Of a stretch of 12,143 nt of DNA, positions 6,274 through 9,044 are shown piece after piece (positions within the stretch are counted from its first letter, which is position 1; each line of letters opens with the position of its first letter). Under the pieces are notes generated by a model. That model made no database searches and had not been told where the DNA came from. It worked only from the letters and a program-made list of their open reading frames with translations. Position numbers and translations under genes: made by a program. Source of the DNA: Acidobacteriota bacterium (GTDB taxonomy: Bacteria; Acidobacteriota; Terriglobia; Terriglobales; Acidobacteriaceae). Where the stretch lies: the NCBI GenBank assembly GCA_021841795.1, contig JAKCDN010000044.1:1-12143 (forward strand), written 5' to 3'.

Positions 6274-8538
6274 ATGGCAGTGAAGAAAAAGACAGAGCCG
6301 GCTGCGAAGCCGTCTAAAAGAGTTCCGTTAACAGCGAAGACCGAGGCCGTCACGAAAAAGGCGGATGCCGCCGGCAAAAAAACTGCGGCCAAAGCAGAAA
6401 AGCCGAAAGCGGCAAAAAAAGCGTCCGCGAAGAAGAGCGCAGCCACGGCCAGGAAAGCACCCGCCAAATCCAAGGTCACCTCCGCAAAAGGCCAGAGGAA
6501 ATCCGTCAAGCGAAAGCCGGACGCTGAGTACCATATCGGCGATCCCGTTCTCGATCCCATCGGTGACGAGACCGACGGTGAGGGCCGGACTTCTTTCCTC
6601 GAAATCGAGGAGATTTCATCGGCGGAGACGGATGCATACAGCGGCGGATCGGCTCTTTTCGAGGCCGAATCAGACGACGAAACCGTAGTCGAGGAAATGG
6701 CGGAGGACGACACCCGGCTATTGGACGATTTGCTGCCGCCGGAAGAAGACGAGGCCGAGACGGATAAGGAATCTCGCCCTGCGCCCAACCCCGAGCGGCT
6801 GCAGAAGATTTTGTCGCAGGCAGGTATCGCCAGCCGCCGTCACGCTGAGGAGCTCATCGTTGCGGGCCGCGTGATGGTCAACGGAAAGGTGGTCACCGCG
6901 CTGGGCTCAAAGGCCGATCTTGCCCACGACCATATCCGCGTTGACGGCAAGCTGCTGCACGGCGCCGAGCGGCATCGCTACTTTATGCTCAACAAGCCGC
7001 GCGGCTACGTCACCACCATGAGCGATCCTGAGGGCCGTCCCACGGTGATGGGGTTTTTCTCCGGCGCGCGCGAGCGGGTCTATCCCGTCGGGCGGCTCGA
7101 CTTTCAGAGCGAAGGCCTCCTGCTTTTGACCAATGACGGCGAGCTGGCAAATCTCCTGACCAAAGCAGGATCAGGCGTGGAAAAGACCTACCTCGTCAAA
7201 GTCGCGGGCCAGCCCTCCCCCGAACAGTTGGAGCGCCTCCGCGACGGCGTTGCCATTGAGAAGGGCGCGCCCGGGTCGGAACGGGTGCGTACGGCTCCAG
7301 CGCGTGTCCAGCAGGTGCGCGAGGGCGAGAATCCCTGGTTCGAAGTGGTGCTGATCGAGGGCCGCAATCGCGAGCTCAGAAAGATGTTTGCCGCCATTGG
7401 ACACTTTGCGGAGAAGATTCGCCGCGTGGGCTACGGACCGCTCATGCTCGACGTGGAGCCGGGCAAGATGCGTGAGCTGACGGTGGAGGAAGTAGGCGCT
7501 CTCAGGCTGACGGCCGAGGGCCGTATGAAGCCGCGCCGCATCCGGGCCACACAGATGCTGCCCAAGGATGCGGGCATTGCGGCCGAGCAGCGCGCGGACA
7601 AGCGCGGCGGACGGGGCGGCAGAGGTTTTGTGCGGCGTGGCGATACAGACCGGCTTCCTCAGGCGCGGAAGGAGTTTCGCGGCCAGCGCCCGTTCGGGCG
7701 CGGTGAGTCGAGCTTCGCCGGGCGAGAGCACGAGGGAGTTGAGCCGCGTGGCGAGCAGACTGAGTTGCGCGGCGGCCGGCAGCAGGGCTTCGGCGGTGGA
7801 TGGCGGCGCGAGAAAGACGAGAGATCGCTCAACGGCAACTCCCGCGCACCGTTCAGGTCAGGCCGTCAGCGGCCCGATGTGGACCGCGAGGCAACCTCGG
7901 CCCAGCGCGGCGAATTCAAACCCCGCGGCGAATTCAAGCCTCGCGGAGAGTTCAAACCCCGCGGAGAGTTCAAGCCTCGCGGTGAATTCAAACCCCGCGG
8001 CGAGTTCAAGCCTCGCGGCGAATTCAAGCCTCGCGGCGAGTTCAAGCCTCGCGGTGAATTTAAACCCCGCGGTGAATTTAAACCTCGTGGAGAATTCAAG
8101 CCCCGCGGAGAATTCAAACCCCGTGGAGAATTCAAGCCTCGTGGTGAATTTAAACCTCGTGGAGAGTTCAAGCCTCGCGGCGAATTCAAGCCCCGTGGAG
8201 AATTCAAACCCCGTGGAGAATTCAAGCCTCGTGGTGAATTTAAACCTCGTGGAGAGTTCAAGCCTCGCGGCGAATTCAAGCCCCGTGGAGAATTCAAGCC
8301 CCGTGGAGAATTCAAACCCCGCGGCGAGTTCAAGCCTCGCGGTGAGTTCAACCCCCGCGGCGAATCTAAGCCTCGTGGCGATTTCGGCGGCAAGCCGCCG
8401 CAATCCGGGAGTGGGGGCAAACGGAACTTCGGCGGCAAGCCGGGAGGTTTCGGAAGATCGCGTGGCGCGGGCGGAGGTGGAGCGAAGCGCGGTTTTTCGC
8501 GGCCCGACGCGCGGCGCAGTGGGCGGAAGCGCGATTGA
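6274..8538 (+). CDS. rluB: 23S rRNA pseudouridine synthase (RluB/RsuA family) with giant repeat tail
   Basis: The enzyme converts a uridine of rRNA to pseudouridine (U2605 of 23S rRNA in E. coli RluB). The core occupies about 173-412 of 754 residues. An S4 RNA-binding domain (174-235, RLQKILSQAGIASRRHAEELI) is followed by FMLNKPRGYVTT (237-248), the catalytic motif GRLDFQSEGLLLLTNDG with D276, KTYLVKV (304-310), and EGRNRELRKMF (362-372). RluB of E. coli has about 290 residues. The rest is low complexity: residues 1-82 are Lys/Ala-rich like a histone H1 tail, 97-168 are acidic, 440-545 are Arg/Gly-rich, 546-701 are hexapeptide repeats, and 702-754 are Gly/Arg/Lys-rich. These segments probably stay unfolded and may bind RNA, but that is inference. 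GGAGG (6262-6266), 7 bases before the ATG, fixes the start. It is co-transcribed with scpB by spacing. Exact rRNA target (RluB, RluE/F or RsuA type) rests on the scpB linkage. Confidence 0.9.
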   Translation: MAVKKKTEPAAKPSKRVPLTAKTEAVTKKADAAGKKTAAKAEKPKAAKKASAKKSAATARKAPAKSKVTSAKGQRKSVKRKPDAEYHIGDPVLDPIGDETDGEGRTSFLEIEEISSAETDAYSGGSALFEAESDDETVVEEMAEDDTRLLDDLLPPEEDEAETDKESRPAPNPERLQKILSQAGIASRRHAEELIVAGRVMVNGKVVTALGSKADLAHDHIRVDGKLLHGAERHRYFMLNKPRGYVTTMSDPEGRPTVMGFFSGARERVYPVGRLDFQSEGLLLLTNDGELANLLTKAGSGVEKTYLVKVAGQPSPEQLERLRDGVAIEKGAPGSERVRTAPARVQQVREGENPWFEVVLIEGRNRELRKMFAAIGHFAEKIRRVGYGPLMLDVEPGKMRELTVEEVGALRLTAEGRMKPRRIRATQMLPKDAGIAAEQRADKRGGRGGRGFVRRGDTDRLPQARKEFRGQRPFGRGESSFAGREHEGVEPRGEQTELRGGRQQGFGGGWRREKDERSLNGNSRAPFRSGRQRPDVDREATSAQRGEFKPRGEFKPRGEFKPRGEFKPRGEFKPRGEFKPRGEFKPRGEFKPRGEFKPRGEFKPRGEFKPRGEFKPRGEFKPRGEFKPRGEFKPRGEFKPRGEFKPRGEFKPRGEFKPRGEFKPRGEFKPRGEFKPRGEFKPRGEFKPRGEFNPRGESKPRGDFGGKPPQSGSGGKRNFGGKPGGFGRSRGAGGGGAKRGFSRPDARRSGRKRD
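7909..8376 (+). repeat. 18-bp tandem repeat, 26 units, encoding GEFKPR
   Basis: Twenty-four consecutive 18-bp units (7909-8340) each encode exactly GEFKPR. Two degenerate units follow, GEFNPR (8341-8358) and GESKPR (8359-8376), and then GDFGGK. Every difference among the 24 units is at a third codon position: Gly GGC/GGA/GGT, Glu GAA/GAG, Phe TTC/TTT, Lys AAA/AAG, Pro CCC/CCT, Arg CGC/CGT. No GGG, CCG or CCA codon is used. Each unit adds a net charge of +1. Units 1-6 alternate AAA-CCC and AAG-CCT, suggesting an older 36-bp dimer step. Because the unit length divides by three and lacks stops in several frames, long false frames cross this region on both strands. Confidence 0.98.
8107..8286 (+). 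repeat. Perfect 90-bp tandem duplication within the hexapeptide array
   Basis: Units 12-16 (8107-8196) are identical base for base to units 17-21 (8197-8286), including all synonymous positions. Identity continues 11 bases further (8197-8207 equals 8287-8297) and stops exactly at the left edge, where 8106 is C and 8196 is T. This points to a recent five-unit duplication by slippage or unequal recombination. Confidence 0.97.
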
Positions 8539-8600
8539 GCGCGCGGCGATCGCCGTTCTTGTCCCAGAAGCGAGGGGCGCGAAGATTGCAGCATTTCCTG

Positions 8601-8606
8601 GAGAGG
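8601..8606 (+). promoter_or_regulatory. Ribosome binding site that sets the cupin start
   Basis: GAGAGG lies 6 bases before the ATG at 8613. The open frame begins earlier (8535, overlapping the rluB stop), but that upstream start has no ribosome site and would place the signal peptide internally. The start at 8613 is therefore preferred. Confidence 0.7.
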
Positions 8607-8612
8607 TTGTCG

Positions 8613-9044
8613 ATGACCGTACGTTCTCTGAGCGTGTGCCTCCTGGCATGCGCAGTTCATCTACCCGCGCAATCTGCCCCCGCCAATCCGCTCGCGCATT
8701 CGCAGGTCTTTGCGTTGAACGCAATGCGCGCAACCACGGCCCCCAACGGCGTTGTGGGCCGCAAGGTCTTCTCTGGAACGCTCGCTACCGGCGAGGCCGT
8801 TGCCGTGCACGAGACCACGCAGCCTGCTGGAGCACCGCCCAGCCCCATGCATCGTATCGGGCACTCTGAGGTCATCGTGGTGGTGGAGGGTACGATCGAA
8901 TTCGACCACGACGAAAAAGCGGAGCGCGCCGGCCAGGGCAGCGTAGTGTATGTCGCCAGCGGAACCCTGCACTTCATCAGGAACGTCGGCAGCGGTCCGG
9001 CAACATATGTTGTGGTGCAAGTCGGCGGCGATACCAGGCAATAA
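8613..9044 (+). CDS. Small exported single-domain cupin protein
   Basis: This is a 143-residue protein with an export signal (MTVR, then a hydrophobic run to about residue 18, then Pro/Ala; likely cleavage near residues 21-25). LLAC at 10-13 could instead be a lipobox, but the hydrophobic run before it is short. One cupin beta-barrel fills the rest. Motif 1 is degenerate: H80 and H84 in MHRIGHSE, then E86 and G93, whereas the classic form is HxH-x(3,4)-E-x6-G. Motif 2 fits well: G109-x5-A-x-G117-x2-H120-x3-N124, with Ala in place of the usual Pro. H80 and/or H84, E86 and H120 could still bind a metal. Cupins range from dioxygenases to sugar-binding proteins, so no reaction can be named. It lies 74 bases after rluB on the same strand and may be read with it. 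It is convergent with the diguanylate cyclase gene. No clear terminator is seen in 9045-9169. Confidence 0.8.
   Translation: MTVRSLSVCLLACAVHLPAQSAPANPLAHSQVFALNAMRATTAPNGVVGRKVFSGTLATGEAVAVHETTQPAGAPPSPMHRIGHSEVIVVVEGTIEFDHDEKAERAGQGSVVYVASGTLHFIRNVGSGPATYVVVQVGGDTRQ

Follow-up and report, generated by a model that had tools for sequence, protein, structure and literature searches.

A GEFKPR hexapeptide array, apparently under selection as a peptide, in the predicted disordered tail of an acidobacterial RluB-type pseudouridine synthase

The closest known counterpart of the protein considered here is E. coli RluB, the pseudouridine synthase that modifies U2605 of 23S rRNA (PDB 4lab, 4lgt), with which it shares an S4 domain, a catalytic domain and a GRLD motif. 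E. coli RluB also has a C-terminal extension of about 40 residues; in extracts of the structural paper these last residues, 252-291, are described as predicted to be disordered, poorly conserved, and removed for crystallography (PMC3919597). In a stem-loop complex of RluF the corresponding segment is disordered and, in the same extracts, is said not to contribute to binding (PMC3919597), which argues against a role in recognition of the target stem-loop, and not against tethering to a larger particle. A second body of work concerns protein repeats, for which a paralogous, or "horizontal", mode of evolution has been described, with birth and death of units, homogenisation and dN/dS below 1 (Persi, Wolf and Koonin 2016; PMC5120217). 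Extracts of that paper place the repeat copies under strongly relaxed purifying plus positive selection (PMC5120217).

The window, by which we mean the whole stretch of DNA analysed, is an entire 12,143-bp contig of an Acidobacteriaceae draft genome that is 71% complete (genome G000). On the upstream side of its rluB gene are a glycoside hydrolase 3 gene, a phosphate permease gene and scpB (features of rluB are given in the table). The enzyme looks like an ordinary RluB/RsuA-type pseudouridine synthase: the S4 domain (PF01479, 48.0 bits against a cut-off of 22.8) is followed by PseudoU_synth_2 (PF00849, 72.8 bits against 26.8), and, as ranked by E value, the closest solved structure is E. coli RluB (4lab, 1e-38; RluB 9cl9, 4e-38), ahead of RluF (6e-31), RsuA (2e-28) and RluE (5e-22). 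The residues G273, R274, L275 and D276 are invariant in an alignment of eight proteins, and we take the aspartate D276 to be the catalytic one. Among the best 80 matches to RluB, the top named ones are from Acidobacteriaceae and other Acidobacteriota, mainly metagenome assemblies, with other phyla lower, in a search from which records very close to the window may be missing.

Features of rluB in the window (positions are those of the 12,143-bp contig)
Feature	Position	Strand	Basis
rluB gene, 754 aa	6274..8538	+	PF01479 S4, PF00849 PseudoU_synth_2, best PDB match 4lab
N-terminal extension, Lys/Ala-rich then acidic, predicted unstructured	6274..6789	+	pLDDT <50 at residues 1-170 except 154
S4 RNA-binding domain, residues 174-213	6793..6912	+	Pfam
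Pseudouridine synthase catalytic domain	6979..7395	+	Pfam
GRLD motif, residues 273-276	D276 at 7099-7101	+	alignment of 8 proteins
Basic C-terminal tail, residues 447-754, predicted unstructured	7612..8535	+	pLDDT <50 almost throughout; composition
24 exact consecutive GEFKPR units, 144 residues, 14 DNA types	7909..8340	+	sequence, TRF
Units 12-16, first copy of exact 90-bp duplication	8107..8196	+	
Units 17-21, second copy of exact 90-bp duplication	8197..8286	+	
Edge units GEFNPR (8341-8358) and GESKPR (8359-8376), imperfect, in register	8341..8376	+	
Gly/Lys/Arg-rich C-terminal end, alignable with G081	8377..8535	+	

It is at its two ends that this protein departs from E. coli RluB: the C-terminal extension is about 310 residues long and contains a perfect array, and there is a 170-residue N-terminal extension as well. 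An AlphaFold2 model built on an eight-sequence alignment has a mean pLDDT of 52; it is confident only over about residues 171-420, and even there the loop at 327-341 is weak. The N-terminus has a Lys/Ala/Pro-rich stretch, resembling histone-H1-like tails, before its acidic stretch, and similar extensions are present in several relatives in the genus. Is the C-terminal tail then an RGG/RG region? These regions are defined by at least three RG spaced no more than four residues apart. The tail has 37 RG, the array reading RG-EFKP-RG over and over, and by spacing it is of RG type; pLDDT is below 50 nearly throughout residues 447-754 (a prediction from eight sequences). It has in common with such regions the repeated RG, the aromatic and basic residues, the lack of a predicted fold and the attachment to an RNA enzyme; what sets it apart is a fixed period of six residues, each unit containing a proline and an acidic residue. 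The earlier description of the tail as somewhat like RGG is fair, as the array has RG every six residues.

The earlier note reported 24 identical GEFKPR units at 7909..8376. There are indeed 24 exact units, ending at 8340, and they make up 24 of the 26 units in the whole range; GDFGGK follows the second edge unit. The further statement that the units differ at third codon positions alone, without a residue change over 144 residues, holds for all differences among the 24, the mean pairwise difference per site being 0, 0 and 0.486 at codon positions 1, 2 and 3. Two other readings of the locus may be considered. One is that the repeat matters as DNA or RNA, or as a gene in another frame. Of the five other frames, three run open through the array (two on the antisense strand, and one with the repeat PRGLNS), since no stop arises from the unit in them. 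With variation confined to position 3 of the rluB codons, we reject both the DNA-element and the antisense-gene versions, and consider this reading hardly credible. The PRGLNS frame itself is 264 aa long, at 7866-8660 on the minus strand. The other reading is that the copy number is an assembly artefact. At 468 bp with its edge units, the array is longer than common short reads, and the assembly of a related genome, G025, breaks inside its array; here, the contig crosses the array with flanks of 7.9 kb and 3.8 kb, and the 14 DNA types among 24 units serve as landmarks, so that an artefact seems very improbable.

How did the units multiply? Tandem Repeats Finder (TRF) gives periods of 18, 36 and 90 bp. 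The earlier note had reasoned that simple recent expansion leaves identical DNA. This holds only in part, since block duplication also spreads silent variants, as the exact identity of units 12-16 with units 17-21 shows. The array codons are a subset of those of rluB, Pro being CCC or CCT only and Arg CGC or CGT only, with no CCG, CGG or GGG, even though elsewhere in the gene Pro is most often encoded by CCG. Such a founder-like subset points to few mutational events, and the array looks like a small founder set of units spread by block duplication.

Duplication and homogenisation are blind to the difference between silent and replacement changes, so silent-only variation needs either selection or luck. 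A minimum spanning tree joins the 24 units with 15 synonymous changes and not one that is non-synonymous, for which the binomial P lies between 3e-10 and 6e-9 over transition biases of 1 to 4; with all 26 units the counts are 18 and 2. One might object that the array is young, a founder block of silent variants having been amplified recently, so that selection would predate the expansion, with scant time afterwards for replacements to arise. The exact 90-bp duplication, the 36- and 90-bp periods, the founder-like codon subset and the near uniformity of the array in G025 all favour this. Nevertheless, even the lowest possible count, with 7 silent events and no replacement, would hardly be expected in the absence of selection: P runs from 1e-5 to 6e-4 for a silent fraction of mutations between 20% and 35%, and is 5e-4 if only transitions occur (a third silent). 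Under a milder background constraint the lowest count alone would not exclude a young expansion (about 0.02 at dN/dS 0.25 and 0.07 at 0.15), whereas the 15-event count would (about 2e-4 and 4e-3, respectively). We regard a young expansion as an improbable account of the array as a whole.

The constraint needed was gauged by simulations of mutation and block duplication matched to the observed silent diversity, success being 24 of 26 units with equal peptide. They started from a single founder unit, with 26 units fixed and no codon bias, and used chosen match windows for the silent summaries, mutation:duplication ratios of 0.3-4 and a transition bias of 2 or 4. Not one success occurred without constraint (0/2949 at dN/dS 1.0) or under mild constraint (0/2414 at 0.45, 0/2654 at 0.25). 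Under stronger constraint there were 31 in 2504 at 0.15, 82 in 2624 at 0.1, 404 in 2654 at 0.05 and 1359 in 2844 at 0.02. A separate simulation agrees at the observed diversity; with half the silent diversity it is less strict, giving 13/200 at dN/dS 0.25 for one mutation:duplication ratio. The simulations thus require a dN/dS of about 0.1 or less for this array, and purifying selection on the peptide within the G000 array is supported, subject to the model.

Constraint of this order can be set beside that on the rest of the protein. Of 21 close genus pairs, 18 gave an estimate for the tail, with dN/dS of 0.11-0.32, and core dN/dS is 0.013-0.097 in all 21; 13 of the 18 tail estimates have a tail dS above 1.5 and are uncertain, and the pairs overlap in their genomes, so that they are not independent. 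Tails are generally under constraint: where tail dS is below 0.8, in four pairs, tail dN/dS is 0.15, 0.32, 0.16 and 0.27. For the G000 tail itself the values are 0.21 against G081, 0.31 against G019 and 0.51 against G025, the last over 60 codons. The array appears to be held about as tightly as the enzyme core, and more tightly than tails usually are. In its unit duplication and its dN/dS below 1 it is like the repeats of Persi, Wolf and Koonin, as presented in the extracts of their paper (PMC5120217), and it is unlike them in having no replacements among 24 copies with an array pS of 0.73 and pN of 0. No paper on a GEFKPR array was found in the open-access literature, as judged by titles and the starts of abstracts.

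Does the exact hexapeptide persist among relatives? Across the genus, 80 loci had a match to the RluB core; 72 were read, and eight were left out for want of an anchor motif or because of truncation. GEFKPR was absent from these eight, four of which had a tail. The pairs L002/L032 and L143/L212 are duplicates, so that 70 + 4 = 74 genomes had an RluB tail at least partly read, several of them cut by contig ends, and in these GEFKPR units occur only in G000, G025 and G081. An RluB match was absent in four genus genomes, G082 (98% complete), G066, G076 and G030. In another, G072, the frame stops 39 residues past the core anchor, next to an ambiguous base (contig C31, L210), which is either a tail loss or an assembly fault.

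The two relatives with GEFKPR units tell different stories. In G025, core and tail are on two contigs, joined only in our interpretation, and there are 19 whole exact units before the contig ends inside the array; their spanning tree has 5 silent and 0 replacement changes. The breaks inside the array concern contigs C113 and C45 (L032, L031). Beyond the G025 tail lies, in opposite orientation, what by eye is an HflX-like GTPase gene, where G000 has a cupin gene. G081 heads the core matches, with 86% identity over 273 residues (core identity is put at 86-90%), and its position as sister to G000 is weakly supported (0.476). Its array keeps the same register over 14 units, most of them changed, to GEFRPR, SEFPPR, GESRAR, EDFKPR and RDFKPR among others, and its spanning tree has 29 silent and 28 replacement changes, with pN/pS of 0.446. 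Counting changes per unit in related tails, as the earlier note had proposed, gives a mixed answer: G025 agrees with selection on the peptide and G081 does not. The note had also held that a related strain having the tail with frequent residue changes would argue against such selection. G081 is such a relative; purifying selection on the peptide, supported within the G000 array by the spanning tree and the simulations, is therefore not a general rule.

Other lineages have other repeats. A tail query found matches with E up to 1e-3 in 11 of 80 genus genomes, G000 included, and in 59 of 398 family genomes. Were these further GEFKPR arrays? In 34 of the loci given for weak tail matches in genus and family, the exact unit was absent in all six frames, and the idea was rejected for them. 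In-frame arrays of at least three copies were found by TRF in 18 of 66 RluB tails and in none of the other 48, with units that differ by lineage; G100 has a different, 30-residue repeat containing FKPR, and G019 is similar by eye. Elsewhere in the Acidobacteriaceae, the frames at L193, L197 and L189 end in GERKPFGDRK-type repeats. Paralogous pN/pS ranges from 0.00 to 1.22 in the 17 arrays where it is defined. Ratios about equally low to that of G000 come from two small arrays, with two whole units in G035 (0.00) and four units in G102 (0.04), so that G000 stands out by its number of units and not by the ratio alone; a long array with its pS and pN is unusual, though not unique in kind. The extensions themselves are long in this genus compared with other families: in 24 genomes of the latter, the best RluB match lies in an open frame of 256-632 residues, at most 401 in 21 of them.

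What the tails of the genus have in common is their composition. In all 65 tails with more than 150 residues beyond the first 60, net charge per residue is 0.106-0.188 (median 0.143), there is no cysteine, and I, L, V and M make up at most 4.4%. This invites the explanation that the tail is a charge or solubility spacer, with bulk composition alone selected (about +0.14 net charge per residue, few aliphatics) and the hexapeptide neutral and merely tidied by duplication. The narrow charge across 65 tails of differing sequence fits, as does the nearly equal net charge of the tails with the exact array (G000, 0.141) and the decayed one (G081, 0.143). However, selection on composition alone should tolerate replacements such as E to D, K to R or Q and G to S, which G081 indeed has, and none of these is seen in the 24 units; the simulations at dN/dS 0.25, with no success, also weigh against it. 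We judge this explanation to be rather unlikely for the array. Since other tails in the genus do without the exact array, the hexapeptide is not needed for the role of the tail in the genus.

What might the peptide do? The array region alone was searched against 5.8 billion proteins, and the matches were classed as RNA-acting or not, a class that is our own assignment and that rests in part on what we take the Pfam accessions to mean. All 26 matches in the tail-only search are RNA-acting on this basis, 25 by Pfam domain and one by name: ten DEAD-box helicases, six pseudouridine synthases, three NOP5/NOP56 proteins, three THUMP/UPF0020 rRNA methyltransferases, two SpoU methyltransferases, one protein of RNase II/R type, and one Caprin-named protein, without a Pfam domain, from the nematode Rhabditophanes. 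A second tail search, giving shorter proteins, had 16 matches, 11 of them RNA-acting and eight new: three SpoU, DbpA-domain and RRM proteins, four 23S-rRNA-intervening-sequence four-helix proteins, and one without a domain. PF00588, PF03880, PF00076 and PF05635 were identified by name among the matches. Together the searches give 29 RNA-acting proteins of 34, a raw share, uncorrected for the general frequency of disordered Arg/Gly-rich tails on RNA-acting proteins.

Several points limit how these matches are to be read. The pseudouridine synthase match P0014 ends with exactly the G081 tail, and so is an orthologue and not an independent case. When the array region was reversed, 1197 candidates gave one match, against 2477 candidates in true order; this match, P0027, ends with exactly the RluB tail of G012 and is itself RNA-acting, so that the control shows dependence on residue order and says little about RNA association. 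In the units of the matches an acidic residue precedes the aromatic at 82% of 305 sites and K follows at 69% (33 proteins, one without a site); since the query chose the motif, only the nature of the matched proteins is informative. RNA binding by the tail is only indirectly supported, by the mostly RNA-acting nature of those proteins.

The related tails (P0001-P0026 and P0028-P0035) are of GDFKPR or GEFQPR type, with units that are mostly [G/R][D/E]F[K/Q/R]PR, and their bearers include DEAD-box helicases, NOP5/NOP56, rRNA methyltransferases and other RluB proteins. Their arrays vary in residues and spacing, and by eye none is exact over 24 units. P0028, P0030, P0031 and P0033, with EYKPRDG/GEFKPR tails, belong to PF05635, the four-helix-bundle 23S rRNA-intervening sequence protein, and there is a hint that this family may contact RNA. 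Perhaps, then, [G/R][D/E]F[K/Q/R]PR is a recurrent RNA-handling motif that has arisen many times, on helicases, rRNA modification enzymes, Nop5, ribonucleases and possibly PF05635 proteins, with the exact hexapeptide selected once arrayed; we hold this tentatively, as less probable than not. Another suggestion is a condensate scaffold, the alternation of aromatic, basic and acidic residues making RluB phase-separate with rRNA. Its regular F/R/K/E pattern, with RG every six residues, is suggestive, and DEAD-box helicases and a Caprin-named protein, kinds of protein known in condensates, are among the matches; against it, the regular array is missing from the other tails read, G025 excepted. Condensation by the tail is possible, and as the explanation of the array we find it distinctly doubtful.

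The reading we prefer, at a probability of roughly one half, is that the array is a lineage-specific hexapeptide expansion in a disordered basic RluB tail, selected as a peptide and serving to tether RNA. One hexapeptide would have expanded in tandem inside a long, disordered, positively charged C-terminal tail, its units multiplying by in-frame block duplication of the kind seen in the exact 90-bp repeat, while purifying selection held the peptide and wobble positions drifted. With an aromatic F, basic K and R and an RG step in each unit, the array could act as a multivalent RNA tether of low specificity, which may raise the local concentration of the enzyme on rRNA and keep it at 23S rRNA or pre-50S particles as its S4 and catalytic domains locate the target uridine. 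Genus-wide, selection would act mainly on length, charge and composition, so that other lineages would satisfy it with other repeats, the regular GEFKPR array being the current solution in the G000 lineage and G025. For the tail overall, the best reading is of a fast-evolving, putatively disordered and RNA-tethering extension.

Why should such a tail matter? It is easy to disregard the disordered tails that bacterial rRNA-modifying enzymes carry, as when that of E. coli RluB was removed for crystals, according to the extracts cited above (PMC3919597). A natural, perfectly periodic tail whose peptide is apparently selected is a clean object for asking what these tails do. If it is true that the unit recurs independently on unrelated RNA-acting proteins, it would provide a testable sequence rule for RNA tethering in prokaryotes.
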